In this document: positions 1-42,812 of the stretch, in pieces | How the letters are laid out: each line of letters starts with the position of its first letter | Numbering within the stretch: the stretch's first letter is position 1 | Source: Scenedesmus sp. ARA3 | Taxonomy: Eukaryota; Chlorophyta; Chlorophyceae; Sphaeropleales; Scenedesmaceae | Assembly: GCA_004335835.1 (NCBI GenBank) | Contig: RWJK01001533.1 | Coordinates: 2,759 to 66,758 of the forward strand | Direction of reading: 5' to 3' | DNA: 64,000 nucleotides | Made by a program: the position numbers and the translations under genes | Notes under the pieces: model-generated | What the model was told of the DNA's origin: nothing | Database searches by the model: none | What the model saw: the letters and a program-made list of their open reading frames with translations, nothing else

Positions 1-10
1 CCCCTCCCAC

Positions 11-88
11 CTGCGCATTGAGCTCCACGTAGGGCGTGCCCAGCCTGAGGAAGCGTGCAAACAGCGACTCGTCCAGCCGGCTGTACAC
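11..88 (-). repeat. 3' echo of AQR exon 22
   Basis: About 75 bases repeat the donor-side part of exon 22 ([11 protein letters not shown].. to ..YVELNAQ, real copy 235-310) with their own GT donor, just downstream of the exon in gene sense. The copy lacks an acceptor. Confidence 0.8.
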
Positions 89-234: not shown

Positions 235-3200
235 CTGTGCGTTGAGCTCCACGTAGGGTGTGCCCAGCCGTATGAAGCGCGCAAACAGCGACTGGTCCAG
301 CCGGCTGTACTTCTGGAAGGCCATGTTCTGCACCACAGGAGGCAGCTGGTGGTGGTCGCCTGCAGGACAGCAGCAGGCAGCGCATGGAGGAGCGCAAGGA
401 GTGATGCGCAGGGAGGTGCGCTCAGTGCAAGGCTTGCGGTGGGTGCAACAGCTGTGCCGAGGGTGAGAAACCCATACGCCCGTAGCGAGCAATTAATTGG
501 TGTTCTGACAAGTACTGTCACAGTGTAACAGTTTGTAACAGCCTTGAAACATACCGATGAGGATGACGCGCTTCAGGCGAGCCACGCCGTCCTCCTGGCG
601 CTGCAGCACCATGGGGATGAACGTCTCCACCTCCAGCACCTGGCGCAGCAGCAGCAGCAGCAGCAGCAACAGTGTCAGTAGCAGCAGCAGTGTCAGTAGC
701 GGCAGCAGCCATGATGCTGTGCAAGCTATTGTCTGTGTAGGTTCGTTGCATTGTTGCATGAGGTAAGCCCAGCTGGATCACGCCTGCATGACATGCAACA
801 ACAGAAACTTCCAACTGAACCAACAGAGCTCCAGTCAAACCCAATGGTCAAACTACTTGGTCAAACTAGCTGGTCAAACCCTTGGTCAAACATCTCTACC
901 AGAACCCCACCTGGCCCGCCTCCTCCATGACGATGTTGTCATACTTGAGCCCCAGGTTTAGGAACTCGCGGCGCTTCAGTGCTGCATGCGTGCAGGTCAT
1001 GGCCACCACCTTGGCCTGCTTGTTGCACAGGTAGCTCACGCGGTCAGCCTGCAGCAGCACATGGTGCAGAGCACATGATGCACAGTGTTAGTGTGGGCCC
1101 GTAGCTAAATGGTTGCACAGCTAGCTCACACGAACTGCCGCACATCAGCGCATCGTGCCTAGCATGAAATACACGGTTGAACTAGTATCGGTGTGAGCAG
1201 ACCCAAACCAGGTGTACTGCGGCTGCCGGGCCCCTGCCACACCAAAACGACATACTCAGCAACCTGATAGCAGGCGTGGCTGCATCCACGTATGGTTCGC
1301 ATTTTATAGCCGCTGCGTGAGCCCACCTGGCCCTTGAGCAGCTCGAAGGGCCGCGTCTCCTCCAGCTCCTGGAACAGCAGCCGCAGGTGCCTGAAGCAGC
1401 CCTGAGCCACCTCCATGTCCTGCAAGGGGAGAGGCAACGACGGCCGACAGGCACGGCAGTAGGGTTCAGAGGGTGTGTCGAGAAGGTGCCTAAAGCAGCC
1501 TTGGGGCAACCTCCATGTCCCGCAAGAGGAAGATACACCAAGCAGAAGATGAGGCCAGATAGCACCAGCCATCATTGTCCAGCTGCACAGCGATTGATGC
1601 TCAAAATATGGCTACAGGGAACAACGCATCCAGTCAAAGGCCCGTTGACCCACCTCCTCGTAGCTGCTGCCCTTGAACAGCGGCTGCGGCGCATCAGCAA
1701 AAAACTCCTTGAAGGGGAACAGCTCCCCTACCGATGCTGCCACGCCCCTGTGCTGCTGAGATGACACGGCCGCAGTGAACTTCTCCCACCTAGGGTTTGT
1801 GCAGCAGAGGGGGTGTTTGTTAGCAGAGGGTTGATGGTTTGTCGAGCAGAGGGTTGTTTGTTTGTTCAGCAGAGGTTGATTTGTTTGGAAGGCAAAGCAG
1901 TGAACAGGGGTAGGGCGTTGCAAGGCAGTTCAGTACAGGGGTGATGCAGTGCTTGGTGAGGCGGTACACGATACAGCAGTACACGGACAGGCACTGCAAC
2001 TACTAAAGGAGTGCCCAATGTAGGGATGGCTGTCACAGTGCATCCCAGCATAGAAGCGCAACAAGACACCATCAGCAGCGCTAGCAACAAAGACTTGACC
2101 ATCAGCATCAGCATCGCTGGCAATCAAGACTTGATGCCCTTAGCTGGCCAATCAGTGTGTGTAACGCTGCTGCGCTGCTGGCCCTTGGTCCTGCTGCCAC
2201 TGCCTGCAAGGCACATGCGAGCCACAGTGCCTGATGCCTAAGCATGACCCCACCTGCTGAGCACGTGCAGCAGCCAGAAGTAGCCAGCTGTCTCACAGGT
2301 GTACTCAGCGTGTGGCACCCCCAGCAGGTTGGACAACTTCTCAACCTGTGCAGGTGGCAGCGACAGCAAAAAAGGCGCAAGCAAGGCAGCAGGGCAGCAG
2401 CCATGGCATGTGTAAGGAGGGTCGTGGGTCGTATACAGGGGTCAGCATGAACATAACAGGCACGACAATAAGGCAGTAACACAAGATCCACAAAAGCTGC
2501 TGCTATTTGCTTACCTCCGCGAGCAGCGTCAAGCGCCGCGCAAGCATGTTGTTCACTCATCGTGCACGGGAGACGTCATAGTCACACCCAAGTCCTGCTC
2601 GCCCACGTCGTTGACCAAGGACACAGCAGTAGCCGCCACGCATGTACATGCTGTTGCACCCTGCTCTCAATGCATCCAATGCAGGGCAACACCAAGATAC
2701 AACCTAGCAGCCGCACAACAACAAGGGATCACAATGAGCTGGGCATCCCTCACCTCTGCGAGCAGCGTCAAGCGCCGCGCAAGCATGTTGTTCACGCGCC
2801 CCGCCCGCGAGAAGTCGTCATCAACGTTCAAGTCCCGCTCGCCCATGCCCAAGCGCAGCAGGTAGCGCGCGGGGATGTCCCGAGCCACCATCTTCTCGAA
2901 AAGATCGTTCAGCGCCTGGTTGCTGTGCGTGATGAGCAGCGTGCGCTGCCCCGGGCAGTTGTGGTACAAAACCTGCAGCACATCAGAAGAAAGGCGGGCA
3001 GAAAAGCAGCGCAGCAGCATGAGGGGAGCCAGAAGATGCAGCATTGCCCGGCCCTGCCTGCAAGCCGCGATAGGCAGCAACATGACCGGCAAAGAAAGCC
3101 AGGCCACCTGCAGCCCCTACACTGCTGTGCCAAGAAGCAGCAGAGGTGCAAAATCTAACTGAAGGACCACAAAGCACCGGCCAGGCTCAAAGCAGTGCAG

Positions 3201-6200
3201 CTCTCACCTGCAAGATCTGCACTGCTACGCGCAGCTATGTGTGGCAGCTGCAAGATGTGCAGGCAAACCAAAGTACACAGCTGTGCTCACCTGCAGGATC
3301 TGCACTAACACACGTAATTGCAGCAAGCAGGGCAAAAACACGACACCCATGCACAACACAGCTCACCCGCAGGATCCGCAATGCTATGCACAGCAGCGAT
3401 AAGATTCTATCAGCGCCGCAGTTTCTCACCTGCAGGATCTGCACTGCAGTGTCTGTCTTGCCAGTGCCGGGCGGCCCCACCACCATTGTCAGCCCAGGCT
3501 GCACACCATCTGCACACCATCTGCACTGCTACGCGTGGCTATGTGTGGCGGCTGCAAGATGTGCAGGCACAACCAAAGTACACAGCTGTGCTCACCTGCA
3601 GGATCTGCACTGCTACGCGTAGCTATGTGTGGCAGCTGCAAAATGTGCGGGCAAAACAAGAAATACACGGATGTGCTCACCTGCAGGATCCGGACGGCCT
3701 CACACAACTGCAGCAAGCAAGGCAAAACACAACACCCACCCAAGCATAGCTCACCCGGAGGATGTGCAGTGTGTTACACAGCAGCAGCAAGATCTTAGAA
3801 AAGTTTGAAATCAAAACGCCGCAGTTTCTCACCTGCAGGATCTGCACCGCCGTGTCTGTCTTGCCCGTGCCAGGAGGCCCCACCACCATCGTCAGCCCAG
3901 GCTGCACACCCGCAGCAACCGCCTCAACCTGCACCGATGTGAACCTCACATCATTGCCCTTTGGCTTATCTTCCGGATACGGCCCCATGTTGATTGGCTT
4001 GTAATGCTCGACCAGCAAGACCGGCCTACTGCTGCTGCTGCTGCTGCTGCTGCCATCTGCTGCCGCAACGGCGGCGGCGGCTACGTCTGTCGTGGCTTTA
4101 GCGTCTGCGCCGCGCTTGGTGCTTCCGGGTGCCGGCTTGAGCTGCTGCTGGTCAGAAGGGAAAGCGACCTTGTAAGGCGGCGGCGGCAGCGCTGCTGCGT
4201 CGTATGTGCCGCTGCCTGTGCTGATGCTGCTGCTGCCGCTGCTGAATGTGACGTCATATTGCGGGAAGCAGTCAATCAGGTGCTGCGCATCAAGGAATGT
4301 GTCCTGTGAATGATAGCAGCAGCAAGGTAAAACACAAACCGTCAGTGAACGGCTGTTACTGCAGTACTGCAACCAGCGCAACGATGGTACCCTGACGTGT
4401 TCTGTGTGCAGCACTGTCGCAGGCGCAGGCTTGTTTTCATAACAGCGCAAGCGGACGCTGCGTACTGCCATGACGCTCAATCCGCAGCACATGTGCAACC
4501 GCTGTCTCGCCATCGCAACAAACACCCATCAGGTGCTCTAGTACTGCAACCTGGTGAGCAGCGTGCATTGACAGCTTCATCATGATTGTTATAGTCGTCT
4601 TTTAAAAAAAAGCGCCACCTTGAAGTCCACTGCGCGCAGCAGGCCTGGCATGGCGCTGTAGTGTGCCGCCCCCGCGGCCCCATAGCTCAGGAAGATGTCC
4701 ACCAGCCACTCTACTCTAACCACATACTATCCTAGCCAGCTGCCCCAAACACAAATACATGCGCTGCGTAGCCGTCTTTCTGCTGCTCACCCCTCCCACT
4801 ACATTGCACGCGCAACCAACTGCCGTCTTGTCACAAATCACAACCAACCGCAAAAAACCCCACCTTGAAGTCCACTGTGCGCAGCAGCCCCGGCATGGCG
4901 CTGTAGTGTGCTGCGCCCGCGTCCCCGTAGCCCAGGAAGATGTCCACCAACCACTCCGGGATGACCAGCTGCTCATTGAGGCTGTCACGGATGGACTCCA
5001 GCACAGCCTGCAGCAGCAGCAGCAGCAGCAGCTTCAGCAGCTGCAGCGGTTTCAAACGGTGCGATTCAATGTCGCACGGCACAACCAGCCGCAGACCATG
5101 CAAAATAGGGCCATGCAGTACCAGTGTCAGGGCGTGCACGCAAGAGGAGGAGGGATAGCCGCGTGCACGCACAGCACAACGCATGCAACCTGGGCGGATG
5201 TCTGCTTCAGCCCACGGCGCGGCACCCATTTCGTAATCCAAGCGTGAGGCTGCACGTGCACATTGTTTCACTTGGTCAGTGAAAACACATAGTGCGATTC
5301 CACGTTCCTGCTGCTGCACACAACATCCTCGCAAGGCCAGCTCTGCTGCCGCCACCTACCTTGAAGTTGTTCTCCTTGGCGTCTCGCCGCATGACCACAT
5401 TGAGCGCCGGGTACACGTCCGGCGCGTCACCCGAGGCAGTCGCGTTCACATCCAGCTGGTACTGAGCCGCATCCAGCGCCACCACATACGTGCGCACAAA
5501 GCCTGCGGCGAAATCAAAAGCATGTTAAGTTGGCTGCAGTGCATCCAGCGCCACCACGTACATGCGCACAAAGCCTGCGGCAATGAGACACAGCAGGGTT
5601 GCTTTTGTCAGCCCGTGCAGTGGCATTCACATCCAGCTGGTGCTGTGCCACAACCAGTACCACCATGTACGTGCACACAAAGCCTTCAGGTCCATTTAAA
5701 AATGTATCGTCAACCATTCAGTCGCAGCATTTGGTGAGTGTGAAAAGGCCTTGGAGCCGCATGCAAGTTGAGGATGGTGTTGCTGGCGGGATAACTCAGC
5801 AGACACATAGCCCGAATCGCATGTGCACAGGGTTTGATGCTGTGATCCCACACACCATGAGACAGTCCAACATCACTGTCGTGTGCCATAGCTGCACATC
5901 GCACGGCCCCTCGCTTGCACCAACTACACCAACCTAACCACTGTCGTTAATCTCACCTTTATATGGCTTGCGCTCGTCCAGCCGCACCCTGCCCGTGAAG
6001 TCGTTCATCAGGCCACCCTCCTCGTCCCGCACCTCCACCACCTCTCACAACCACAGCAGCTGCTCAGCTGCATTGCACTTCCTGCCCTTGCTCACATCAA
6101 ATAGCCGTATGCATCCTCACCTTTTGCTGACAGCAGCTGCATGGCTGCATTCGCATTGAGCTGCTCTACTTTATTAACATCAAAAATCTAATCTATACAT

Positions 6201-9200
6201 CACGTCTGTCCTGCCTCTCACCTTTTGGAGGCTTGCGTTCGTCCAGCCGCACCCGGCCCGTGAAGTCGTTCATCAGGCCACCCTCCTCGTCACGGACCTC
6301 CACCACCTCAGCGCCACGCACCGCCAGCAGCCCCACGCGCTGCACCAGCGGCAGCGGCTGCCCCTTGCGCAGCCGTGCTGCTTTTGCAGCTTCTGCAGCC
6401 TCCTGCTCGTTGGGCGGGTTCACTGCGGGCAGGAGTGAGAAAGGGTAGACAGCGAGTGTGCAGATTGGCTGAAAAGGGTGCAGGAAGGTTGCAAAATGCA
6501 CGATGACGCCGGAGATGGGGCTCGTAAGCAGCCGGCTTGCCTGCAGGGACCAAGCAAAACATAAGGGCCGAAAAATGGTACTGTATGACAGCTGCGCAGC
6601 CCCACGCGCTGCATCAGCGGCAGCGCCTGCCCCTTGCGCAGCCGCGCTGCTTTCGCGGCCTCTGCGGCTTCCTGCTCATTGGGCGGGTTCACTGCGCACA
6701 GCGTTGAGGAAAAGAAGACTTGTTGTGTGCAGATTGTTCAGGAAGATCGCAGGAAGTATGGCACGCAACACCATTTACATGCTTGTCAGTTGACAGCCAT
6801 GAGCTTTTCACGCCTCTTTCAACAATTCCTCATGGGAGGTGAGGAATTCCTCACTGCCTCACCTCCCATGAGGAACAGCACGTCGTGCTGCTTCAGCTCA
6901 TCCCAGCCGCTGGCCATGTCACCACGCAAGAGTGCTGCCTGCCCAGCAAACCATGCACACGCAGACCAACATCTGCAGGTAGCTGCCGCCAACAACCACG
7001 CAGCTGCAGTGCGGCTCCTCACCTGATACCACCAGACAGAGAAGCAGCCGCACCGACCCCGCCACACACCTTCCGCAACCCCACCTGGCAACCCCACCTG
7101 CCAACCCAATTTTATATCAAGTTGGCAGATGTCCTTTCACACCGCCTCACCTCCCATGAGGAAGAGCACGTCGTGCTGCTTCAGCTCGTCCCAGCCGCTG
7201 GCCACATCACCACGCATGCCGCGCGTGTCCACCACCACCTCCGCCAGCACACTGGCGGGGTGCGCCTCACCCACACGCGGTGCCGACACCTGCAACATGA
7301 TGATGCGCACGGCATGGCAGGCAGGCAAGCAGGTGAGCGCTTGGTTGCAAGACAAACTACAAAACATATTGCTCAGCAAGAAAGAGAGTGCTCCAGTGCA
7401 TGGAGGTCAGTCGCATCCTTGCTCCTCATCTGCACAGCATGTACGAGCAGGAGGGTGCACCAGACTTGAACTGAGGTGCCCTGCGCACTGCCCGCTATCA
7501 CAAGCATTCCCTGCCGCTGCACGCAGCTGAGCGTTGCGGAAGGAGGTGCAAGTAGCAGGACTAGCAGGAAGGACGCAGCTGATACAAAACTGCCCTGCCT
7601 ACGTGCAAAGGCTGCCCACAAACTGCTGCGCATCACAGGCAGTAAAATCCAACCCCTGCCCCGCACCTGGGTGATGCGGAAGGAGGTGAGGGGCGTGGCC
7701 ATCTTTGACCAGCCGCTGAACACGATGTTGTCGTCAAAGTCGCGCCCGGGGTTGAGCCGCTGCAGCGCCACCTGCGGGAGACAAAAGATCGATCAAGAAG
7801 CATGATCAGATGCAGCATGACGGCGAGAAAGAAGGAGAAGAGAAACAATGAAGTTGTCATGCATGGCTTCAAACTGGTGATAAGCAGTGGAGATGTGAAG
7901 TCGACACAGCTGGGTGCTTGCAGCTGCAGCTTCCCAACAGAAACTGCTTCTCTCACCTCGATGTCCTCGCGGACTTCGTACGCTGCCTCCAGCCGACACA
8001 GGTGGAAGATGCACAGTAGGTAGACACTAACCTACACACAACCACACACTTCACGGTCATCTTGATACCCGCATGATCCCACCAAGAACTCTCTCACCTC
8101 GATGTCCTCGCGGACTTCGTACGCTGCCTCCAGCCGGAACAGGTGGAAGTTGCGCAGCAGGTAGTCAGAGGGGCTGAGGAACTGCAGGTTGAGCTTGGGC
8201 AGCGCCAGCGGGGCTCCGCCAGAGTAGGCCGCAGTGGGGATCTGCATGCCAAGAAGTATAGATGGACAAGTGTAAGAAGGTCTGTGTGGTACGAACGCAT
8301 GCTGAGGAACTGCAGGTTGAGCTTGGGCAGGGCCAGAGGGGCACCACCGGAGTAGGCCGCGGTGGGAATCTGCAATCAGAAAGAAGATAGACGGATGATT
8401 GTCGTCGATCTGTGTGGTATAAACACATGTTGAGGAACTGCAGGTTGAGCTTGGGCAGGGCCAGGGGGGCGCCACCAGAGTAGGCCGCAGTTGGGATCTG
8501 CATGCCAAGAAAATATGATTGGACAAGTGCAGAAACGTCTGTGTGGTACGAACGCATGCTGAGGAACTGCAGGTGTGAGCTTGGGCAATGCCAGGGGGGG
8601 CACCACCAGAGTAGGCCGCCGTGGGGATCTGCATGCCAAGAAAAGCAGATAGACGGATGATTGTCGTCGATTTGGGTGGTACCAACACATGCTGAGGAAC
8701 TGCAGTTTGAGCTAGGGCAGCACCAGCGGTGCGCCACCAGAGTAGGCCGCCGTGGGGATCTGCATGCCAAGAAAAGATGAATCAACAAGTGTGAGAAGAT
8801 TGTTGTGGTACGCACGCATGCTGAGGAACTGCAGGTTGAGCTTGGGCCGCGCCAGGGGGGCGCCACCAGACTAGGCCGCCGTGGGGATCTGCACGTCAGT
8901 ATTGGGAGGCACATGTCAACAGTGAGCAGCACACAGCAAGCTCACAAAGATGCTACAGCCTGAGGACCTGCAGGCTCGCGTAGTCGCATCATGCGCGGTG
9001 GAAACCTGCACAGAATGCCAGCGACTCATACGTCGACACGCATGCACACATGTGGAGGGAGCCCAGCTGTGCAAGTGCCGTTGGCTGTTTGACTGGGCTT
9101 CAAACTCAACCCCGTGAGAAGCAAGCTTGAAGGCGGTCAAAATCTTGGACCTCTGATCTTCACACCCCAGAGCTGCACCCGCAGCTGCCTGCAACGGCTG

Positions 9201-12200
9201 GCACAAAGCACAAACAGCCGCACCTGTGTAATGTCCCAGAGCAGGCCCTCATTGGGGTAGATAGGCATGGCGTTGATGGCTGCCCGCTGGCTTTAAACGC
9301 AAACCCCAGTACAGTCTGCACCTTACACCCAGTCAACTGAAACCCACCAGCCGCAGCTGCTTGCATCATGCTGCGTCAGGCGGCCTTCAAGCACCAGCAA
9401 AATCAAGCAATGCTCATTCACATCACACTACACGCAAGCATGAGGGCCCAGCACCACTTTCCGCAATCCCTACCTGCGTGGTGTCCCAGAGCAGCCCTTC
9501 TGTGGGGTAGATGGGCATGGCGTTGATTGCTGCCCGCTGACTGGCGCGGCGCTGGTAGGTGGAGACCAGCACGTCAAGCAGGAAGTCCGGGTCCTGCACG
9601 CACGCGCGATGCACAAACAACGCAGAGCAAAAATCAGCAACCAAAAGCGGCACTGGCAGATCTCGAGCAGGCGCTGGTAGGTGGAGACCAGCACGTCAAG
9701 CAGGCAGTCCGGGTCCTGCACGCATGAAGCACAGTCACTCATTCAGCAGGGGCCGTAGCTATGCATGTATTTGAGTTCTTTGAAATCCAGAAGCCACATA
9801 ATTTTGTCCTTGAACAGACGCCCAGACACAGCAGCCGCTGGTCACCGGAATGTTGTACAACAGGTGACCGCACCTGTGCCCAGGGATCGTCCTCGCCAAC
9901 CAGCCGCAGCTGCCGGCACACCAGCTGCACCAGCTCCTGAGGCGCCAGCTGCCGCAGCGCTCGGCGCAGGCCGTCAGGCGCACAGGCTGCTGCGCAGTTT
10001 GCCAGCGCCAGGTCATACAGCTGCGGCCAGTGCTTGAAGAACAGCCGCTGCAGCTGCGAGACCTGCAAGGTGAAGCAGCAGCAGCAGCAGCAGCAGCAGT
10101 TGAAGCCGGTTCATGAGTATGCATGGGCAGCAGACGCAAGCATTACGGGTGGCATGCAAGGGGCTAACAATGAGGCATTGATCTACCCAGTCGCGGCACG
10201 TTGCCAACCGCACAGCTGTTGGGACAGTGTGCAAGGCACTTCAAAATGGTCCAAAATGTACGATTTAAAGCACAAAGCAGGCCTCAGGGGTCCAGACATG
10301 GTGTCAGCAGTGGCGGCAAAGCCGGCTCAGCGGTGCTGTAATACCAGTAGCGTTGTCAATCGTCACGGGCCACACACAACAGCCGCGAGTGTCGACTTAC
10401 AAAAGAAGATAGATGTGCACAGGTGTCTGCTGCCGGCGATGGCCTACCACAGACCATGGACTGCTTGGGAAACTTCTCAATTGTGATGTGCAGGCACCCA
10501 CATGTACATCATTGCAAACGGCATCGACATGGATTCCACACAACAAAACCGCATGATCGCCAGCACATGCCTTTTCAAATAGAGGGTAAAGGCCAATGTG
10601 CCAATCTTAGTAGTGTGAGGCCATCAGGGGTCCAGACATGGTGTCAGCAGCAGCACAAGGCATCAATGCCCATGCCTCTGCAGCGCCGTTTACCAATGGC
10701 TTAGTCATTCATCACAGGCCCATATACCGCAAGCCACAATGTGCATGAACAGTACACAGCAATTGAACACGACCATAAACCATACCCCGTGCGCACTGCT
10801 GTTCGATAACTGTGTGAATTCAGCGCCCTCAGACAAGGTGCACCAGGGCTGCACGTACCAACGGAACATACAGCAGACCGTTGGCAATAATAACCGTTCA
10901 GGATATTTTAAAGGCGGTCAGGGGTCGAGACATGGTGTCAGCAGGTGTCTTAGCAGAAGCCAAGTCTCAGCAGCGCCAATACCAATGGCTGAGTCATTCA
11001 TCACCAGCCAAGACGCAGCGGCACAGCAAGTGCAAGCGTGGCAGGACACTGCATCGTGCATCTGCCAGCCATGCGGCAAGTGGACAGAGATGTCACGCAT
11101 TGTCAAAGCAAGAACAATGTTTCTGATCGTGTGCATGCTCGGTGAGGCCGTCAGGGGTCCAGACATGGTGTCAGCAGGAGCCTTGGCAGGAGCCAAGTCT
11201 CAGCAGCGCCAATACCAATGGCTGAGTCATTCATCACAGGCCAAGACGCAGCAGCACAGCAAGTGCAAGCGGGGCAGGACACTGCATCGTGCACCTGCCT
11301 GCCATGCGGCGAGTAAAGTGCACAGAGATGTCACGCACTGTCAAAGCAAGCACTATGTTTCTAAACGTGTGCATGCTCGGTGAGGCCGTCAGGGGTCCAG
11401 ACATGGTGTCAGCAGCAGCACGGCACGGCTGTGCCAGGCATAAGCAACGCCGATTACCAGTGGCTGAGTCATTCATCACTGGCCACATGCGTGCCATACG
11501 GCTGCCACTTTTTGAAATAATCACATTCTAAGGCAACTGTAACGCCAGCAACTGCTAATCCACCACCCAAAAGGCTAACCAACTCACTCGACTCCTACGA
11601 CTGGCTTCCCCGTTACCCCACACACAGCACCCAAGACATACAGTACCAGCAGCATAACCGCCCTGCATACACATAAGCCATCCATGTTACTAACAACATA
11701 ACAAGTAACATAACAATGTAACAGCCGCCGCACCTGGTCGTAGTGCCCCGCGACCACGTCGTCCTCCTTGACGTGCTCCGCCGTCAAGAAGAGTGCAATC
11801 AGCATGCGACATAACAAATAACATAACAATGTAACAGCAGCCGCACCTTATCGTAGTGTCCCGCGACCACGTCGTCCTCCTTGAGCTGCTCGCCAGTGTG
11901 GTCATTCAGCGGGAAGTCACAGTAGAAGGCCAGCAGGTCCAGCAGCTGCCGCAGCAGCTTGCCGCCCGGCGAGCTGTACAGCGCGGAGCGGCGCGCCTGC
12001 AGGTGATTTGCAAACACATGAAGAACACATGAGGAACCGCAGCGTTGCAGCAAGGCAAGAAGGCCAGCAGGTCCAGCAGCTGGCGCAGCAGCTTGCCACC
12101 TGCTGAGCTGTACAGCGCAGAGCGGCACGCCTGCAGGTATCATAGCAGACAGATGGCAGTGTTATGACAGTGTCACACTAGCAGGCCAGCAGGTCCAGCA

Positions 12201-12774
12201 GCTGCCGCAGCAGCTTGCCGCTGGGGGAGCTGTACAGCGCAGAGCGGCGCGCCTGCAGGCATTATAGCAGACAGATGGCAATGTGATGACTGTGTCACAG
12301 TAGAAGGCCAGCAGCTCCAGTAGCTGGCGCAGCAGCTTGCCGCCCTGGGAGATGTACAGAGCGGAGCGGCGCGACTGCATTGGCAGACGAATCGGCGCAG
12401 CAAGCAGTGTTGGGCTGTAAGCAATCAGGCATCAGGTACAGCAGCTGCCGCAGAAGCAGCCTTCACAGCTCACTCTGCATTAGCCAAAAAGTGCTATTTG
12501 TGTGTGCAAAAACAAAGTTGCGCAGAGTTGCGCAAGATCAAGCAAAACCGCGCCCCACCTTGACAAGCAGCTGCTGGTCCTCCAGCAAAGCATGCACGAA
12601 GCGCCGCGTAGGCAGCTGACTCAGCAAGTCAATCAGCCACTCCACAAATCGCTCCAAGTGGCGCAGCTGCATCCGCTGCGCCTGCTTGCGCTGGTTGCGC
12701 TCTTTCTGCTTGCGCGCCTGCTGCTGCTTGCGGCTTTGCTGCTGCCGCTTGCCGCCTTGCTGGTGGCCGTTCTG

Positions 12775-12807
<33 letters not shown>

Positions 12808-14254
12808 ATCTTCTGCTGTCGTCAGTGCATTGTCTGCTGCTGCAGGCTCCACTTCAGCCTCTGCTGCAGCATCTTCTCCTTCTTGCTCCTCTTCCTCTTC
12901 TTCTTCATCCTCTTCATCTGCCTCTGCTTCTGCTTCTGCTGCAGCTTGCGGCTGCTGCTGCTGCTGCTGGCCAGCCAGCTGAGCATCAGCAGCGCGCAGC
13001 ACACTCAGGAACTCCTGAATCATGCCTGGCAGGAAGCTGGCTTCAGCCCTCGGAAGCTCTGCTGCTGCTGCTGCTGCTGCTGCTGTCCCCTCGGCATCAG
13101 CCACCGCGGCATCCCCAGCTGCCGCATCCTCTGCCTTGGCTTTGCCTTTGTCTTTCTTCTTGGACTTGCCGCCGCCTGCTGCTGCCTTGGCTTCTTTCTT
13201 CAGCAGCGCTTTCCAGCGCTTGGCGAGTGCAGGCTGTGCAGCGAGCTCCAGCTGCAGGCGGCCGTGTGAGAGGCCGTGCCAGATGGGCAGGCTCACAAGG
13301 CGGAGCGCCTGGCGAATGGCAAAAGAGGTGCAGGTTTTGAGCACAGCAGAGGACAGCACACAGCAGCAGAACGTCAGCAAAGCAGAGGGCAGCACAAGAA
13401 GCATAACCTCCGTTCGACAGAGCAGAGGACAGAAAACTGTTTGCCACCCTCAACGTGCTCAGAACCTCCAACTCCTGGGCAGTCTCCAGATGTCCCAAAT
13501 GTGCTGCTCCTGCACCTGCTGCTGCTGCTGCTGCTGCTGCAGCAGCAGCCTCTTACCTGCAGCCGCACAGCTCCATATTCCAGCGGCTGAATGCGTTGAT
13601 CACGACCAGCAGGTAGGCTTGCAATGAATGTTTCGTACCAATACAAGTACAAATACCGTCATGTTATCTCACCTGCGGCCGAACCATCTCATCCTCTAGC
13701 GACTGGAATGCGTTGATCATGAACAGCAGGTATGCCGTGGCTTCGTGCTGCGCCAGCTGCGACCAGCGCTCAGGCAGCCGCAGCGCCAGCAGCCGGCTGA
13801 AGAAGCCCGGGAACACCTCCTGCAGGCACACCGGTGGCATAACACTTAATAACAAGTTGTATGACTGTTACTAACATGTCATGACTGTGTTATAACATAT
13901 AGGAGAGCAAAAGCAAGTTACAAAGATGGACGCGCATTCCAAAGGTTGGCAGGGAAAAAACACATGCGTAGCCTTGAACTAGCCGGCTCTCAGAGCCGAT
14001 GGGGAGCTGCTGCTGCCGACAACATAATGCCCATGGAGGACTTCAGGATGCATGTGGCTGAACACAGAGGAGTTCAAGCACCATAACAATTCATAAGCAT
14101 TGCCGCACCTGTCTGCTGTGGAAGGCTGTCCAGGCCGGCACGCCCTCCCGGAACTTCTCGTTGACCATGACGGCGATGCTCATCACATGCGCGTCGCTGG
14201 CAGTTGCAGGGTCAAAGTGAGGCCACAGGTAGCCCTCCAGGTACTGAGATACCT

Positions 14255-14295
<41 letters not shown>

Positions 14296-15963
14296 GCGGC
14301 CGAAACACACAATAAGTATGTTGTGCTGCCGGGGTGCTGTCGACCGCCAGGGTGCAACACATGTCTGCTTGCATGCTTTCAAATGCAATCTAAATGCAAT
14401 CATGCAGGTATAATTATTTATTTACTTGCTACCACAACGTAACATCCTCCGCCAGCTGCTGCAGAACACCCCTGCCACACTCCTGCACACAACACACCAA
14501 TATACACAACTGCACAATGAACCAACATACACAACCGCACTTCGAGCAGCATCAAGCGTCACAGCAGCAACAGCATGACAACAGCAGCTGCACCAGCACG
14601 GCACGACACCTTTGTTTGGACTGCTTACAGGCAACACACAGCTTCACTGTCAACAACAGCAGCTGCACCAGCACCATAACAAACTGGCGCCGCACCTCCA
14701 GCAGCATCACGCGCCGCAGCAGCGGCGGCTTGTCCCTGCCCCCGCCCAGCTCCTGCTTGTAGATCTGCTGCACAAGCTGCGGCTCAAACGGCTGCTGCTC
14801 CTCCTTTGCGCGCGCAGCCTCGGACCAGTGCTTGGCTGCGAGCTGCGTCAGCCGGTCGCCAGCGATCTGAGGCCAGGCACAAGCAGCGGGGCGTACGCGG
14901 GAGACGGCATGAATGTTCAGCAGCATGATGGGTGAGCATGTGTTGGACCAATGCTTGGCTGCGAGCTGCGTCAGCCGGTCGCCAGCGAACTGAGGGAGGC
15001 CAGGCGTAAGCAGCGGCAAGTGTATTTGAGAGGAGAAGAGGGGGCGTGCGTGAATGTTTCAGCAGCATGATGGGGTGTGCACATGTCGGGTGGGGAAGTG
15101 CAGAGAAGTGTGTAGGTGCGTGTCAGCAAGTGAGGGACTGCGTGCTTGACATGCAGAGGCTGCAGCATGCCAGTGCGACCAACCTCAGTGCCGCTGCGGA
15201 CCCAGCGCACACAGGCTCGCAGCCATACCCTTATGTCTAGGCAGATGACGCATGTGAGCAAGCAGTACCAGGTGCGTCTCTAGATGCAATAGCGCCATGC
15301 TGCAGCTACGCGCGCCCCCCCAGATTACAAAACGCTGGGTGACTAGTGTACTGCTGCTGCTGCCACAGTCGCCATTGCTGCACCATGCACACAAATGGAT
15401 GCTGGTGCTGCTGCTGATCACAGCCCTAAATGCACTGCGTGTGCAGCTGTGCATGATGCCGCAAGCGCTGGTGCATGTGACAGTGCTGCTGCTGCTGCTT
15501 CTGTGTGCTGCAGCTGCAGCTGCAACAGCAGGCGCTGCATGTTCAATCTTGATTTGACAGCTTAAGCATCCTTGACAGCATTAATGTTGCCAGCGCTGCT
15601 GCTAGCAAGCTTGTGTATTTTCCTGCAAGCATGCCTTGCACTGCAGCTGCGATCTACGCTGGCGATGCTGCAGCTGGTGAAGCAGCAGCATCAGCGCCAG
15701 AGACTGCAGCATAGACTCGGCAGTGCTGTTGCTGCATCAGCTACTCAAGTACAGTGCAGCTAATAGCAGCTTACCTCCTCGAGTGTGAGCATGCCACGCC
15801 CTGCTGCCTTTGCACCGGGCGGTCCTTGCTGCTGCTGCTTCTGCTGTTGCTGCTGCTGCCTGCGTTTGTGTTGCCCAGCGGCCCTCTGCACCACCACATC
15901 CTCCACACTGGTGGGACGTGCTTTCTTTGCAGGAGGGCCGTCTGTTGCATCGTCCCTCGCCAT
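235..15963 (-). CDS. AQR: Aquarius (intron-binding protein 160), spliceosomal RNA helicase; 3' end beyond the left edge
   Basis: Aquarius is an SF1, Upf1-like helicase that binds introns upstream of the branch point within the XAB2 (intron-binding) complex of the nuclear spliceosome. I join 22 exons (high to low): 15963-15775, 14866-14696, 14252-14109, 13819-13673, 13308-12559, 11996-11847, 10062-9874, 9593-9474, 8241-8098, 7771-7667, 7289-7151, 6422-6222, 5502-5360, 5007-4864, 4303-3833, 2972-2754, 2345-2254, 1789-1654, 1419-1327, 1048-911, 639-555, 359-235. This gives 1365 codons in one frame. The armadillo-like N-terminal part is recognisable ([31 protein letters not shown]). Helicase motifs follow: Walker A GPPGTGKT (about 1054-1061), [17 protein letters not shown] at the DEAA-box position (about 1290-1293) and GDHHQLPP (about 1324). 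The remaining RecA2 part lies off the window. Exon 5 carries a long Ala/Lys/Glu-rich insert. The ATG at 15963 is the only suitable one. Introns are full of partial exon copies (see repeats). Confidence 0.95.
1482..1523 (-). repeat. 5' echo of AQR exon 19, acceptor lost
   Basis: A copy of the first about 35 bases of exon 19 lies upstream of it. The position of the acceptor reads CTTGCGG in place of CTTGCAG, so the copy is dead as a splice site. Confidence 0.7.
2508..2610 (-). repeat. 3' echo of AQR exon 16
   Basis: The end of exon 16 ([12 protein letters not shown] and preceding bases) is repeated with a GTAAGC donor, about 150 nt downstream of the real junction. The homology decays toward 2610. 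Confidence 0.8.
3200..3830 (-). repeat. Nested repeat of the AQR Walker A exon end and its donor
   Basis: Two higher-order units of about 400 bases (about 3206-3515 and 3592-3910, the second containing the true exon 15 end) each consist of four sub-units that begin with a donor-like word (plus strand CTCACCTGCAGGAT). Starts are near 3206, 3287, 3361, 3427 and 3592, 3677, 3752, 3829. The 3427 unit repeats the Walker A coding part ([17 protein letters not shown]) almost perfectly. All extra units lie downstream of the exon in gene sense. Confidence 0.85.
4610..4716 (-). repeat. 3' echo of AQR exon 14
   Basis: About 100 bases repeat the donor-side two thirds of exon 14 ([20 protein letters not shown] to VDFK) with a GT donor, downstream of the exon. 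Minor substitutions separate the two copies. Confidence 0.85.
5533..5692 (-). repeat. Two 5' echoes of AQR exon 13
   Basis: Copies of the exon 13 start ([20 protein letters not shown]) lie at about 5533-5582 and 5612-5692, upstream of the real exon (high end 5502). Each keeps an AG at the acceptor position. The second copy is longer and more diverged. Confidence 0.8.
5954..6046 (-). repeat. 3' echo of AQR exon 12
   Basis: The last about 85 bases of exon 12 ([20 protein letters not shown]) are repeated with a GTGAGA donor downstream of the exon; the real junction is at 6222. Confidence 0.85.
6593..6702 (-). repeat. 5' echo of AQR exon 12
   Basis: The first about 100 bases of exon 12 ([20 protein letters not shown]) are repeated with a CAG acceptor upstream of the exon. 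Exon 12 is therefore flanked by half-copies on both sides. Confidence 0.85.
6828..6932 (-). repeat. 3' echo of AQR exon 11 with a 17-bp inverted repeat over its donor
   Basis: Bases 6857-6932 repeat the end of exon 11 ([20 protein letters not shown]) and its GTGAGG donor. The donor junction is also present in inverted orientation at 6828-6844, giving 17-bp perfect arms (6828-6844 and 6857-6873) around a 12-nt spacer. Confidence 0.85.
7949..8012 (-). repeat. 3' echo of AQR exon 9
   Basis: The end of exon 9 ([13 protein letters not shown]) is repeated with a GTGAGA donor, downstream of the real junction at 8098. Confidence 0.8.
8242..8895 (-). repeat. Tandem array of five extra 5' halves of AQR exon 9
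   Basis: Beyond the real exon 9 start (8241), five further copies of its first about 70 bases ([20 protein letters not shown]) lie upstream in gene sense, with acceptor positions near 8370, 8501, 8629, 8761 and 8891, a period of about 130 bases. Most keep an AG acceptor and the same flanking intron text (CTTGGCATGCAG). None has a donor. The array is open in some frames, giving a spurious 255-codon ORF. Confidence 0.9.
9222..9292 (-). repeat. 3' echo of AQR exon 8
   Basis: The donor-side 65 bases of exon 8 ([17 protein letters not shown]) are repeated with a GTGCGG donor, downstream of the exon. Confidence 0.8.
9664..9726 (-). repeat. 5' echo of AQR exon 8
   Basis: The acceptor-side about 58 bases of exon 8 ([16 protein letters not shown]) are repeated with a CAG acceptor, upstream of the exon. 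Confidence 0.8.
10280..11480 (-). repeat. Five-copy intronic repeat, unit about 235 bases, AQR intron 6
   Basis: A core word (plus strand GGGGTCCAGACATGGTGTCA) recurs near 10287, 10627, 10919, 11154 and 11393. The last three copies share a unit of about 235 bases that also includes CAGCGCCAATACCAATGGCT and GAGATGTCACGCA. It does not resemble any exon of the gene and is a purely intronic tandem duplication. Confidence 0.85.
11695..11785 (-). repeat. 3' echo of AQR exon 6
   Basis: The end of exon 6 ([12 protein letters not shown]) and its GTGCGG donor plus about 25 bases of intron are repeated downstream of the real junction at 11847. Confidence 0.8.
12055..12385 (-). repeat. Three 5' echoes of AQR exon 6
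   Basis: Copies of the exon 6 start ([20 protein letters not shown]) lie at about 12057-12136, 12178-12260 and 12300-12383, upstream of the exon (high end 11996). Two keep CTGCAG at the acceptor; the third reads GCAG preceded by TGCCAAT. None has a donor. Confidence 0.85.
13556..13620 (-). repeat. 3' echo of AQR exon 4, decayed
   Basis: A diverged copy of the end of exon 4 ([17 protein letters not shown] against [17 protein letters not shown]) with a GTAAGA donor, downstream of the real junction at 13673. Confidence 0.75.
14253..14292 (-). repeat. (CTG)13 tract abutting the AQR exon 3 acceptor
   Basis: On the sense strand an uninterrupted CTG run ends directly in the CAG acceptor of exon 3. 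There is no other pyrimidine-rich tract at this 3' splice site. Confidence 0.85.
14942..15080 (-). repeat. 5' echo of AQR exon 2 with upstream intron
   Basis: About 48 bases of the exon 2 start ([13 protein letters not shown]) plus about 75 bases of the preceding intron are repeated upstream of the exon (high end 14866). Confidence 0.8.
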
Positions 15964-21462: not shown

Positions 21463-21505
<43 letters not shown>

Positions 21506-22318: not shown

Positions 22319-22359
<41 letters not shown>

Positions 22360-22514: not shown

Positions 22515-22572
<58 letters not shown>

Positions 22573-22622
22573 NNNNNNNNNNNNNNNNNNNNNNNNNNNN
22601 NNNNNNNNNNNNNNNNNNNNNN

Positions 22623-22693
<71 letters not shown>

Positions 22694-23950
22694 TGCTGGT
22701 CCTGCAGATCAGCCCGCATATCCTCATCCACTGGCGGCCAGATGCAGCCAACTTCAAGGCCTTCCTAGTCAGGCCGGCCCCCAAAAGCGCGCGTGTTACG
22801 CCAGGCGTCAACATGACAGTGCTGCCGTCCATCGCCGATCAGGTGGGTCATGTTCTAACACTGTTATTTTATAGCAATGTTATATCATTTGCAGCTTTAA
22901 GGCCTTCCTAGTCAGGCCGGCCCCCAAGGGCGCACGTGTTACGCCAGGCGTCAACATGACAGTGCTGCCCTCCATCGCCGATCAGGTGTGGCATGTTATA
23001 ACAGCGTGATAACAACGTAGTCACATTTATGGCAATTGGGCGGCTGGTTGGTGCCAGTGGCAGCATGGCTGCCGGAATGCAATTGATGTTGCTGCCGATT
23101 AGGCAGGGCATGCTGTAATAATGTTATGAAAACGGCGTTAACGGTAGCTTTCTACATTATCAGTTGTGCCTCTGTAGCTCACATGTTTTTCACACTGCTG
23201 CCTGCTGTTGACTGCTATGCCCTGCAGGCCACCATGGCGCCAATGGTCAATATCTGGCACACCACGCTGGGCGATGACAGCGACATGTCAGAGTTCCTGT
23301 GCCCACAAGTGGTGAGCAGCAGGAGCAGCAGCAGCAGCAGCAGCAGCATGCACATAAGCGGCATATAAGCAGCAGCAGCATGCACACTGGCAGCCGCACC
23401 TGCAGCCAGCAGCCAGCAGCCAGCAGCCAGCCAGCCGGCTGTGTTTGGTGTGCGTGTCTCAGGGGCCTCTCTTCCACTATCACAGGTAGCAGCAGGCACG
23501 GCAAGCGACAGCCGGCCAGCCCCCAGCTTGGCATTCTGTGCATCCGCATACCTTGAGACCTCAAATCAGCTGGCTTTTCTCAAGGTTTAGTTGTCTCTTC
23601 AGCATCTGATAGTGAACCAAGGATTGATGGTGCACCTGCTTTTTGCGTTGTTTAGACTGACGGCTCTTTGAAGGCTGCGTGGGCCTCCAAGTAGCAGGCC
23701 CCCAAGATTTCGCTAATGGTTACTACTGCGGGGTTTATTGTTGTTGCTGATGTGCAGACTGACGGCTCTGTGAAGGCTGCGTGGGCCTCTAAGTGACAAG
23801 CACCTGATGGATTGCTAAGGATTGGTGATGCCTGCTGTTTGTCATGCCTGCCGTGTGTTTGTTGTGCAGACTGACGGCTCTGTGAAGGCTGCGTGGGCCT
23901 CAGTGAAGGGCGAGCGCGTGGCCAATGTGACCGGCCCCACCAACAAGTGA

Positions 23951-23991
<41 letters not shown>

Positions 23992-25318
23992 CCATGGCAT
24001 GCTCTAGTCAGCAACGACATTGCCGCAGCAGCACAGTCCAAGGTGCTGCCCAGCATGCAGAGCAGTTGGCTGCTTAAGTTTGTGTTGCATTGGCAAGGTT
24101 GACCAGGTTGTGGCCAAAACAAAACACAAGCCGGCACGTGATTGAACCACATGTCACGTGGCCTGTTACTGTGATGGTGTGTTACATCTTGTTACTGACA
24201 ACCCTGCTGCTTGTGTATTGCTGCTCCTGCCGTTGCAGTCTGGCGGCCTCCGAGTGCGACGAGCACTGCGCGTGGAACGACCGCCGAGTGTTCAACGGCA
24301 CAGCACAGGTACAACAGATAATCAACCAGCAGCAGCTGCTGCATTGCAACTTGTGTCTCCATGTGTTGTTCTAGCAGCAGTTGCCGCAGAACATGCTGCA
24401 TGCAGCACTGCTGGGAGGACATGAGCTGCTACCTGCCTCTGCTAGCAGCTGGAGTGCAGGTGACTGATAAACCCCCTGTCCCGCCTGCCGTCTTTTGCTG
24501 GCTCGCACTTCAACATTTGATCCTTCTACACCACCCTCGTCACCTTGCAGGATGCTGAGTTCACGATTGAGTTCGAGCAGCTGGCCGGCTGGATCTCTGA
24601 TGTGAAGCGCGCGTTTTGAGTGCACATGATCTCAACCCTGTCGCGCCTGCCCCTTCCTGCCTTGCCTGCACTGCAAACCACTCTCATCACCATGCAGGAT
24701 GCTGAGTTCACGATTGAGTTCGAGCAGCTGGCCGGCTGGATTGCTGACGTGAAGCGCGCGTTTGACGTGGAGCTGCGGGAGGGGGGCAAGGCCAAGTACC
24801 GCTGCCTGGGCCTGGGCTACATGTGGTGAGTCATGTTTAGGGTTCAGTGGTTTATGCCGATCAATGAATGCAGTGGGTTATGCAGATCATTAAATGCAGT
24901 GGTTTATGCAGATCATTCAATGAGTACTGGTGCCGTGTGGCGAAGTGCTGCTGCCTGGGCCCTGGGCAACATGTGGTCAGTGATGGCTGTCGATGGTGGT
25001 GTTGAGGTGCATTCCTGCAAGGGTGTAGGGGTTGGTGTCGAGTGTTGCACCCTGGCTGCGACAAGTTGATTAGAAAAAAATTGTTGCATATAGTAGTGTT
25101 GCTCACATGAGCATGGTTGTATAGGCATTGTTTACAATGAATGAAGTAGGAATTCTTGGTAGCGTGTAACAATTTCACTCAACCTGTGCTTGATTGTGGT
25201 AACAGTTGTTTGGTCTGTACAGTTGTATAAGAACGAATTGAGTTGTGCTGTGCCTGATGCTCCAGCTGATGTATGCGACTTCTCCGCCACCACAGACGGC
25301 AGTAGCCAAGGTTGGCTC

Positions 25319-25368
<50 letters not shown>

Positions 25369-39884: not shown

Positions 39885-42812
39885 ATGTCGCAGCAGCGAC
39901 AAAAGGCTGGCCTGCAACTGCTAAGCTGCAAGATCAACGAACACTTCGGCATCGTAACAACTGCAGAGCAGCTGCAAGCACATGGATGGATCAGCTGGCA
40001 GCGCCCAGGCAACAGGAACAACTACTTCCAAAACGAACAGCTGGGGCTTGGACCGTTTATCAACTCGCCTAGCGTGATCAAAGCCATAGAAGCAGCTGCT
40101 AGGCTTGGTCAGAAGCAGGATGTAGCGGCCATGCTGGGGCATCATGCGGTGAGTGCTGTACTGCTGAGCAGCCGCTGCTGTACATTGTACAACAGCACCG
40201 TTGATGCCTACATTGGCTGCTTAACAGGACATACAACCACACTAAAGCGTGAAATTGCGTTGTATACGATGTGATGTGATGTCCTGCTGTGCCGCACATC
40301 ATGACAATCTGTGATGTTGCAGGAGCAGCTGATACAGGCTGCGCCCCTTGATGCTGATGATGACACCCCCGAGGAGCTTGACACAAAGCTGCCTTGGCAG
40401 CAGCTGATTGAGGCGTCACAACAGCACCACCAGCAGCAGCAGCAGCAGCAGCATGATCAGGCCCCGCCCCATGATGTTGAGGAACACCACCACCAGCAGC
40501 AGCAACAGCAGCAGCAGCAGCAGCAGGCAGGAGAGGATCCTGCCTTACCTACGGACAACAGCCCTACACTGGTGAAGCAGGTCAGCATCAGTTGCCTAGT
40601 ATACAAAGTGCTGCAGTGCTGTGCAGTGAATAAGCACAGTTGTTGCTGCAGCAACAATCGTCTGCAACGTGTGGCCACAAGGCATCCTCTGCAGGCTAGC
40701 AGCAGCAGCAGCAGCAGCCTCTGCTCCGCACGGCTTTGCTCTTCATGCGCCTATCAAACCTTACCTTTGCTGCCTTTGCAGGAGAGCGCAGAAACAGCAG
40801 CCCTGCCCAGCCACCTCATCTGGCTTCCAGCAGACAGGGAGCAGCAAGGCCTCGCCACCATTGCAGAGTGGCTCTCCAAAAGCATGGCCGCAGGCAGCGC
40901 CGCAGCATTCACAGCAGCGTTGCTGCAGCAGCGGGGCATGCGCATCGCAGCAGCTGCGGAGCGCGCCCCGGGGGTAAGGAATTACGTGTGGTGGCCTGCG
41001 GTGTTGGTTGAGGGGCCTCTGAAGATGCACAGCTTCAGGCATGGCGCTGAGCTGTTGCTAGGGAGGGAGGACTGCAGGACGGTGAGTGTTCGAGTACTGC
41101 AGTCTTTGTATAAGAACGGATTTACACATCCGCAGAGTCCTCACGGACCGCGTTGGATGAGAAACTGCACATTCAAGCAAAGCTGCGCCAGAAGACCTCT
41201 GACCTTTGTGCTGCCTGAGGGGGCGCTGAAGATGCACAGCTTTCGCACGGGGCTGAGCAGCTGCTAGTGAGGGAGGACTGCAGGCGGGTGAGCACCCTAG
41301 TGCTGCTGCCGGGTAGTTGTGCTCAGGGTGCAGGCAATAGGTCTGGCGCTCATTGTTTTGCAAGCGGTGATGTGCAGCCTGGTTGATTAGCCTGATGGTT
41401 CTCTGTTGTAGCCATACTGATGGCAGGCCTGTGCTGTGCCAGAGCCATGCAACACAGCGCCATGTCACACTTGTGTACTGCATGCTTGCTGCTTCACAGG
41501 GGCTCGGGATCACAGAAGCTGACCTGTCACCAGCAGCAGCAGCAAGCGCAGCAGCCACTGCAGGCAAGGCCAGCAGCATCTGGGGCAACACAGCTGCAGG
41601 TGGTCCTGGTGCCTGGCGCAGCAGCAGCAGCAGCGAGCCACCTGCCAAGCGCAGCAGGCCTGCTGCTGCAGCAGCAGCTGATGCTGGGCATGCGTGGCAG
41701 CCTGATGTAGCAGCAGAGCTGGTTGGCGCTGCGGCGGAAGCAGACAGCAAGGCTGCAGCGGCAGTTGAGCAGGTATGGGTGGGTGGCTGGATGCAGAGCG
41801 TTAACTTTGTGTGGCGGTGGCTAGCCACTGTTAGGCAACTCCGCGCAGAGGGCAGCAATCCATGGCGACACTTTGCTCGCGCTTTGCTCACACTTTTGCA
41901 CATGCCCAACTGCCAATTTTGCCATGGCCCACACAAAGCGGAGCAGTACATTGTGCAGCAGCAGTGCCTCACTTGACAACATAACTGCTATACACCCTGA
42001 CGCTGATGCGTAATACTGGCCAGCATTGACCACAACACCGACACCAGCTGCTGCTGCTACGACACACGCACTCAATTCTGGCCTGCCCCTTGCAGCTACG
42101 GGCTGCACTAGAGCCAGTCAAGCCCATTCTGACCTGGACGCCAGCAGCATACAGCAGCCTAACAGCAGAGACACGCACAGGCCTGCCGGCAGCAATCGCA
42201 GACTTCATCGTAGCAGCAGATAGCCACATCACGCAGCTGCAGCGCGGCCGGGCAGCCCTGCAGCAGCACGCAAAAGCTCGGCCGGCACATATGCGGCACT
42301 ACAGCCTCAGGCAGCAGGGAGACAGCAGCAGTACAAGTGTGGTTGGCAGTGTCCTGCAAGCTGCGGCTGCAGCTGTGAATTGGCTGCAGGGCAGTGAGCA
42401 GCAGCGGCTGCTGCAGCGTGCGCAGCAGGCGCAGCTGCAGCAGCAGCAGGCGGAGCAGCGCAAGGTGCTGTCGCCGCTGAGGAGCAGCCGCCGGCAGCAG
42501 CCAGGGCTCAACAGCAGATCTGCTGCGGTTGCCGAAACAGCTGCTGCAGCAGCAGGGGCTCCTGCCGCGGCTGCAGCTAATGTAGAGCTGCGAGGGCCTG
42601 GGCAGTCTGCGGAAGCAGAGAGTGCGGTAGTAGTGCTGACTCCGGTGCTGACTCAGCAGGGTCAGCAGGCTTTATGTAGTGAGGAAGATCTGGGTGCTGT
42701 GCGGCAGAAGATGGCGCAGCTTGAGGCTGAGCTGGCAGCGCTGCAGCAGCGGGAGGTGGCCCTGGCAGCAGGCAGTGAGCAGCTGTGGGGGCCGTCCCCT
42801 GTGACACCCTGA
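39885..42812 (+). CDS. Hypothetical polyQ-rich protein
   Basis: Exons 39885-40148, 40323-40580, 40782-41081, 41500-41772 and 42096-42812, all phase 0, give 603 residues. The N-terminal 88 residues (MSQQRQKAGLQLLSCKINEH onward) look globular, with GWISWQRPGNRNNYFQNEQL and an Ala-rich helix. Exon 2 is dominated by Q and H runs. Exon 3 contains HLIWLPADREQQGLATIAEW and possibly KMHSFRHGAELLLGRE. Later exons are Ala/Ser/Gln-rich, with a possible bipartite nuclear signal (PPAKRSRP) and a C-terminal coiled coil (AVRQKMAQLEAELAALQQRE). A nuclear scaffold or transcription-related role would fit but is speculation. No known domain is recognised. Exon 3's end (40974-41081) is less certain, because GGTAAGG at 40973 could be an earlier donor. 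Confidence 0.6.
41207..41290 (+). repeat. 3' echo of exon 3 of the polyQ gene, frameshifted
   Basis: About 80 bases repeat the end of exon 3 (GPLKMHSFRHGAELLLGREDCR in the real copy at 41015-41081) with its own GTGAGC donor, downstream of the exon. A one-base loss near the GGGGCTGAG puts a TAG in frame, so this copy cannot encode the segment. Confidence 0.8.

Follow-up and report, generated by a model that had tools for sequence, protein, structure and literature searches.

Tandem exon duplication leaves local direct copies in introns, in the form of complete exons with both splice sites, and minisatellite-like intronic arrays are laid out head to tail. The half-exon copies described here, hereafter called echoes, have local direct exon copying in common with the former, but are complete in 0 of 66 cases; with the latter they share the head-to-tail arrangement (here with periods near 120-130 bp), whereas the echo unit is half an exon plus one splice site. 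For the potato RdRp gene, a single junction-spanning tandem duplication is reported (PMC4974935), through which the gene gained a spliced intron and its mRNA gained exon sequence. The potato copy is direct and in tandem and joins the 3' end of an intron to the 5' part of an exon, acceptor and flanking signals included, which is the geometry of a 5' echo; unlike this case of one gene and a new intron, echoes are apparently left in the intron, are numerous, lie on both sides of exons and decay. Introns can also be gained when a stretch of exon holding AGGT, which then supplies both splice sites, is duplicated and turns into an intron, according to a review (PMC3443670; Hellsten 2011 and Gao and Lynch 2009 as cited there and in the potato paper). 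This process resembles the echoes in being a short within-gene tandem duplication that duplicates splice signals, and differs from them in that echo units run across a junction that was already there and have left no evident new intron. Inspection by eye of eight exons revealed no AGGT at the inner (exonic) ends of the echoes. Junction-spanning duplication is known to us so far only as isolated cases. Among the matches listed from the open-access literature there was no genome-scale description of half-exon copies, which is weak evidence of novelty, and the word 'intron' was not found in the accessible parts of genome papers of relatives (PMC12571836, PMC7955037).

The exons of four genes were fixed by spliced alignment to homologous proteins. 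Two of these genes, AQR and a gulonolactone oxidase gene, lie in the window, that is, the whole 64,000-nucleotide stretch of DNA analysed; the others are a paralogue of the oxidase on another contig and a predicted aldo/keto reductase, 99% identical to that of T. obliquus, in sample L018. Because L018 was picked for its richness in repeats, its echo density cannot be taken as typical. The exons, extended by 12 nt of flank, were used one by one as queries against both neighbouring introns, and the same introns reversed or reverse-complemented served as controls; for AQR and the oxidase an echo required a score of at least 24. Matches rich in CTG/CAG were masked or dropped, and triplet repeats within exons are therefore uncounted. 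The gene models include apparently spurious exons of 25 nt (oxidase paralogue) and 9 nt (reductase), and the spliced aligner yields zero-length exons at CAG-GT motifs, which are artefacts in the AQR and window oxidase alignments.

The search returned 66 junction-bearing half-exon copies in the 57 homology-defined exons of the four genes: 25 in AQR, 8 in the gulonolactone oxidase, 4 in its paralogue and 29 in the reductase. At least one echo is borne by 27 of the 57 exons, one of the four genes having been picked for its repeats. Every copy is in direct orientation, reaches one exon edge and is sited in the adjoining intron, with 34 of 34 acceptor-side copies upstream of the parent exon and 32 of 32 donor-side copies downstream (19 of 19 and 14 of 14, respectively, in AQR and the oxidase at a score of at least 24). 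None of the 66 lies on the wrong side and none is a complete exon copy, and the control introns of the four genes gave no match in 224 comparisons. In AQR and the oxidase, 0 of 136 controls reach a score of 24, the maximum being 22.6; the rule is obeyed by 4 of 4 echoes in the paralogue (controls 0/52) and by 29 of 29 in the reductase (controls 0/36). The splice dinucleotide is retained in 31 of 33 AQR and oxidase echoes and in 25 of 29 reductase echoes, or 56 of 62 together. Half-exon echoes are thereby confirmed as real, non-random and present also outside the 64-kb window. Two more reductase matches, outside the 66, stop short of the junction (exon nt 21-49 and 3-81), and both lie upstream.

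An initial annotation of the window had counted two dozen or more partial exon copies in the introns of AQR, the oxidase and a polyQ gene, where we find 25, 8 and 1. Its proposal that exons be aligned to their own flanking introns bore out the placement that it had described, with copies of 5' parts upstream only and of 3' parts downstream only (66 of 66, against 0 of 224 controls), as well as the usual presence of an acceptor or donor (31 of 33 in the two window genes). It had also seen no complete second exon, which agrees with 0 of 66 whole copies, though one copy of AQR exon 12 is nearly whole. The reading frame of AQR is open across all 22 exons, which differ by few residues from the public Tetradesmus obliquus protein; together with the reductase, this points to T. 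obliquus itself or to a species very near it. The AQR gene and its echoes are as follows.

235..15963, minus strand: AQR (intron-binding helicase aquarius), 22 exons in the window, 25 echoes; from P0001 (T. obliquus) and P0002 (transcript-derived, from a relative)
14929..15005, minus strand: exon 2, 5' echo, nt 1-60, acceptor TCAG; spacer homologous, p 0.003
14535..14597, minus strand: exon 2, 3' echo, nt 117-171, weak, partly CTG-rich; spacer similarity not significant
13551..13618, minus strand: exon 4, 3' echo, nt 85-147, donor GTAA; spacer similarity not significant
12294..12379, minus strand: exon 6, 5' echo, nt 1-81
12172..12259, minus strand: exon 6, 5' echo, nt 1-81
12047..12138, minus strand: exon 6, 5' echo, nt 1-88
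11722..11803, minus strand: exon 6, 3' echo, nt 87-150, donor GTGC, inner end meeting that of the 5' echoes; spacer 93% alike
9656..9724, minus strand: exon 8, 5' echo, nt 1-58
9222..9292, minus strand: exon 8, 3' echo, nt 52-120, donor GTGC, inner end meeting that of the 5' echo
8301..8898, minus strand: exon 9, five 5' echoes in an array, nt 1-67 or 1-69, period 128-131, common exon end point
7949..8026, minus strand: exon 9, 3' echo, nt 75-144, donor GTGA
6852..6948, minus strand: exon 11, 3' echo, nt 56-139; spacer similarity not significant
6596..6701, minus strand: exon 12, 5' echo, nt 1-96
5951..6138, minus strand: exon 12, 3' echo, nt 16-201 of 201, 76% alike, nearly the whole exon, its extent of low confidence
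5607..5685, minus strand: exon 13, 5' echo, nt 1-77
5541..5581, minus strand: exon 13, 5' echo, nt 1-34
4607..4711, minus strand: exon 14, 3' echo, nt 52-144, donor GTGG; spacer similarity not significant
3418..3529, minus strand: exon 15, 3' echo, nt 372-471; more similarity in the same intron at about 3188-3700
2510..2636, minus strand: exon 16, 3' echo, nt 103-219
1484..1530, minus strand: exon 19, 5' echo, nt 1-35, acceptor lost (GG)
6..86, minus strand: exon 22, 3' echo, nt 50-125

The gulonolactone oxidase and the polyQ gene contribute the following.

20342..27036, plus strand: gulonolactone-oxidase-like gene, 13 exons, 8 echoes; spliced alignment of P0121 and P0122
21389..21458, plus strand: exon 3, 5' echo, acceptor lost (AA)
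21510..21583, plus strand: exon 3, 5' echo
22892..22997, plus strand: exon 5, 3' echo, nt 42-135, donor GTGTGG
23647..23698, plus strand: exon 7, 5' echo
23748..23796, plus strand: exon 7, 5' echo, 37 of 37 aligned exon bases identical, one indel
24540..24616, plus strand: exon 9, 5' echo, nt 1-66
24939..24985, plus strand: exon 9, 3' echo, nt 93-128
25971..26006, plus strand: exon 11, 3' echo, nt 44-67
41208..41287, plus strand: polyQ gene, 3' echo followed by donor GTGAGC; parent exon 40782-41081 an ab initio call

The array at AQR exon 9 repeats a unit of acceptor, half exon and spacer at a regular 128-131 bp. Positions 7957-7986, within the 3' echo of the same exon, correspond in 10 of 10 residues to an extra exon in the public protein P0001, which is missing from the transcript-derived protein P0002. 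Since P0001 comes from another source and already has this echo as an exon, the echo is not new. The same observation argues against an assembly artefact in which two haplotypes were merged, as do arrays of up to six copies with graded divergence and the failure to find a second copy of window positions 2200-5510 elsewhere in the assembly (40 of 90 candidates scored); the assembly is an 87-Mb draft in 1567 contigs, which is what such an artefact would have in its favour, and we find it hardly credible. For the same region, which holds AQR exons 13-17 and their echoes, an origin from an introner or transposable element was rejected, since its matches to other contigs fall only in short stretches of its CTG/CAG-rich parts (40 of 90 candidates scored).

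Self-comparison of the window revealed many local direct repeats, as did that of 20 further samples, taken at even spacing and none longer than 10 kb. Over 26 sequences and 311 kb, with CTG/CAG-rich matches removed, local repeats number 162 direct versus 1 inverted, and 159 of the 162 direct repeats lie within 1 kb, with peaks of spacing at 100-150 and 225-275 bp; 5 of the 26 sequences surveyed have no local direct repeat. Repeat density per 10 kb is 6.5 in positions 1-41.3 kb of the window, 0 in 41.3-64 kb and 5.3 elsewhere. Ab initio exons, which are less certain, gave 112 matches versus 1 in 2818 controls, comprising 70 of junction type, 19 covering a whole called exon and 23 internal. The placement rule is obeyed by 60 of the 70 junction-type matches. 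For 7 of the 10 exceptions and 9 of the 19 whole-exon matches, the called exon is itself an echo according to protein alignments (window or L018); the other 3 exceptions (L002, L016 and L025) and the other 10 whole-exon matches concern exons called ab initio only. Of the local repeat pairs within AQR and the oxidase, 22 involve an exon, and the 7 that are exon-free all come from a single array in intron 6 of AQR. Beyond the window, 21 of 152 pairs lie clear of any exon called ab initio.

The intron 6 array has conserved end blocks, RTGATGA-like and CTGA, which we take to resemble the box C/D snoRNA motif. No Rfam family exceeds its gathering threshold in the window, and the intron that holds this array gave just two Rfam matches, both at chance level; a search with a pattern from 18S rRNA, aimed at the snoRNA-like array, gave no match. 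If the array is counted with the 22 exon-touching pairs, nearly every recognisable local repeat in the two genes contains likely functional sequence.

How would half exons come to lie in this way? We hypothesize that echoes are the leftovers of short tandem duplications with breakpoints in an exon and in the adjoining intron, whole-exon and within-exon events having been selected out, and we give this reading a probability of roughly 0.8. A unit of about 70-290 bp would be duplicated head to tail across one splice junction. The copy still joined to the remainder of the exon would stay the functional exon, and the other, left behind in the intron with a single splice site, would then decay; additional rounds would give arrays, and duplications of or within an exon would be purged by selection since they alter the protein. 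The placement rule follows from tandem geometry, because duplication of an intron end with an exon start keeps the second copy functional and duplication of an exon end with an intron start keeps the first. The rule is thus a signature of tandem duplication, which dispersed copying would violate. As evidence of selection it was rejected, and the strict placement rule of the initial annotation stands as an observation (66 of 66) and falls as a separate finding, since the geometry alone suffices. The proposal in the same annotation of tandem duplication with one breakpoint in the exon and the other in the flanking intron is favoured by the 162:1 excess of direct repeats, by the placement of all 66 echoes and by the 17 of 32 spacers that resemble their predicted partner.

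Comparison of intron spacers with the collinear partner predicted by tandem duplication found 17 of 32 similar at p<0.05, 13 of them at p<0.01, and 15 not significant; echoes with these 15 spacers have exon parts that are 73-100% alike. The spacers bear on an alternative in which an intron break is patched from a nearby exon edge, with no duplication of the spacer. Such templated insertion would suit the 15 of 32 spacers without significant collinear similarity and the examples inspected in which the match runs about 2-27 nt into the intron. However, it predicts inverted patches and patches on either side, and we see 1 inverted repeat in 163 and 0 wrong-side echoes in 66. Moreover, when indels are allowed, the AQR exon 2 spacer can be followed collinearly by eye, and it is significant in the spacer comparison (p 0.003). 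We regard templated insertion as improbable.

When units of the observed sizes are placed at random on three gene models, about 28% of events cross one junction and take in at least 30 nt of exon, 6% copy a whole exon, 8% fall within an exon and 48% lie in introns only. This corresponds to 0.21 whole-exon copies per one-junction event in three of the four genes, or about 7-8 for the 37 echo-bearing exon sides (35, plus 2 in the paralogue). The observed number is 0, which supports a selective filter such as the initial annotation had invoked, and within-exon copies are likewise absent from the four homology-defined genes with CTG/CAG tracts masked. A selective cause for the missing whole-exon copies, and a spliceosome that ignores the echoes, would complete the account. 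Besides the 15 spacers without significant similarity and the behaviour of exon-derived parts described below, two observations count against the model: exon-free repeats are near-absent in the two window genes, versus about half of events expected to be intron-only under random placement, and 10 whole-exon matches fall on ab initio exons outside the four genes.

In exons echoed on both sides, the inner ends of the two echoes lie within 10 nt of each other in 6 of 11 cases, versus 1.6 when lengths are drawn randomly from the full set of echoes. Of these 11 exons 10 are homology-defined; ab initio exons shorter than 70 nt and ab initio matches in the window and L018 were excluded. The result is 6/11 for the best-scoring copy (p 0.0015, 0.0012), 5/11 for the nearest (p 0.0071) and 6/11 for the longest (p 0.0018). 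In three of the six coinciding exons the two echoes share 5-10 nt, in the other three they stop 5-9 nt apart, and the five that do not fit (best score) have gaps of 11, 26, 28, 56 and 81 nt. This coincidence favours a different origin, in which many echo pairs are the scar of one event, an exon break repaired by insertion of a whole exon with its flanking intron ends. The inserted copy would be the working exon and the old exon would be split into halves on either side of it; an exon break would be survivable only if the inserted copy had both splice sites, and the exon-derived parts would later be kept alike through exchange with the exon. Such repair would explain the matching inner ends, the anchoring to exons and the absence of whole-exon copies, and, if true, it would make introns a repair margin for exon breaks. 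Against it, only 11 of 54 exons with any echo (ab initio included) are echoed on both sides, and in the array of reductase exon 9 most inner ends are unpaired. We regard an origin in break repair as rather unlikely. The simplest account is that junction-spanning tandem duplications occur repeatedly and that whole-exon copies are selected against, with a slower decay of exon-derived parts in addition.

The exon parts of echoes are 0 to 27% diverged. A high present rate of duplication, which the initial annotation had read from the echo density, gains no support from this divergence or from the echo in P0001, which is not new. When echoes of one exon are compared with one another, their exon-derived parts differ less than their intron-derived parts do in 10 of 11 groups, and in some groups the flanks are nearly as dissimilar as unrelated introns. 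Within the array of AQR exon 9, the differences are 72/690 in exon parts versus 161/589 in intron parts. Over 55 echoes, 172 of 347 codon differences are synonymous (0.496) versus 0.385±0.029 simulated, and 0 of 200 simulations reach the observed share (excluded were ab initio pairs in which the exon contributed under 30 nt or extended under 12 nt past the match). Exon-derived parts thus decay more slowly, and a simple dead copy predicts neither the slower decay nor the synonymous lean. Base composition was rejected as the source of the synonymous excess, since a base-specific simulation still gives 0.385. CpG, with a share of 18% at codon position 1, 14% at position 2 and 21% at position 3, was rejected since the excess at position 3 persists at non-CpG sites (0.091, 0.054, 0.151). 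On reasoning, gene conversion as the sole preserver of exon parts is not supported, since it should lower the synonymous share rather than raise it. In the AQR exon 9 array, the outer copies, which carry stops or frameshifts, fit neutral serial copying from the parent. For the entire array this process was rejected, since it does not fit the nearest copy, where the codon differences from the exon number 7 synonymous but 0 nonsynonymous (1 of 24 window echoes tested, and perhaps a chance result).

Could some or all of the echoes be functional coding half-exons under selection, serving as alternative first exons, as alternative last exons or as mutually exclusive parts? The synonymous excess and the survival of exon parts beyond that of their flanks would fit this possibility, as would synonymous:nonsynonymous ratios of 58:36 in frame-intact and 45:86 in broken echoes, a split made post hoc. 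However, the synonymous share is just 103/225 (0.458) in 35 homology-defined nearest echoes, and simulation gives 0.40-0.42 (SD 0.04) for 24 of these. As aligned, the 33 echoes of AQR and the oxidase contain 33 non-triplet indels, and they have 5 stops, so that most are not translated in their present form, and when the splice site of an echo is computationally put in place of the true one, a frameshift or stop results in 59 of 62 cases. Moreover, the extra exon of P0001 is missing from the relative's transcript-derived protein. For these reasons a coding function is quite improbable.

Annotation is misled by the echoes: many were taken for exons by a gene finder trained on this assembly, and the public protein P0001 includes one. 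Because 56 of 62 echoes keep their splice dinucleotide, yet its use breaks the protein in 59 of 62, the species offers a natural test of how real sites are told from decoys. Decaying half-exon copies could also be used to date duplications and to measure decay within genes. With an echo at 27 of 57 exons, intron growth here appears to be strongly shaped by junction-spanning duplication, and the echoes are a record of that growth in a green alga close to Tetradesmus obliquus.

Local direct repeats are distributed unevenly, such that none is found at the survey threshold between window positions 41300 and 64000, whereas the density elsewhere is 5–6 per 10 kb. Across all sampled sequences, repeat spacing exhibits peaks at ~100–150 and ~225–275 bp, to which multiples within arrays contribute, and only one pair lies <100 bp apart. 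The highest density of half-exon copies is observed in the aldo/keto reductase gene of L018, a sampled sequence outside the window, where 31 copies occur over ~7 kb (L018 81–7296).

The half-exon echo at window 7957–7986 is present as an extra exon in P0001, the public T. obliquus AQR protein, and spliced alignment shows that a 10-residue stretch of AQR is thereby duplicated; this extra exon is likely an annotation error. In AQR intron 15 (window 3200–3700), several CTGCAG|GTGAGC-type sites can be read as acceptor and donor alike, and for this reason the spliced aligner returns zero-length exons there. The sole exon-free local repeat locus found within the two window genes is an array in AQR intron 6:

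10279–11487, minus strand, five tandem copies in AQR intron 6

In these five copies, near-invariant GTGATGAnTGAC and CTGCTGACACCATGTCTGGACCCCTGA blocks flank a variable middle, a layout that we take to resemble that of box C/D snoRNA genes. An Rfam search returned no family at or above its threshold.

An oxidase-like gene family has members on L037, a second sampled sequence, and on contigs C936, C1205, C875, C1411, C1426 and C829 of assembly G000. The C936 gene carries echoes at exons 9 and 12 (numbering of the window gene). A donor-side echo is present at exon 9 of the C936 gene and of the window oxidase gene alike, and the other echo places are not the same. These differing places suggest echo turnover.
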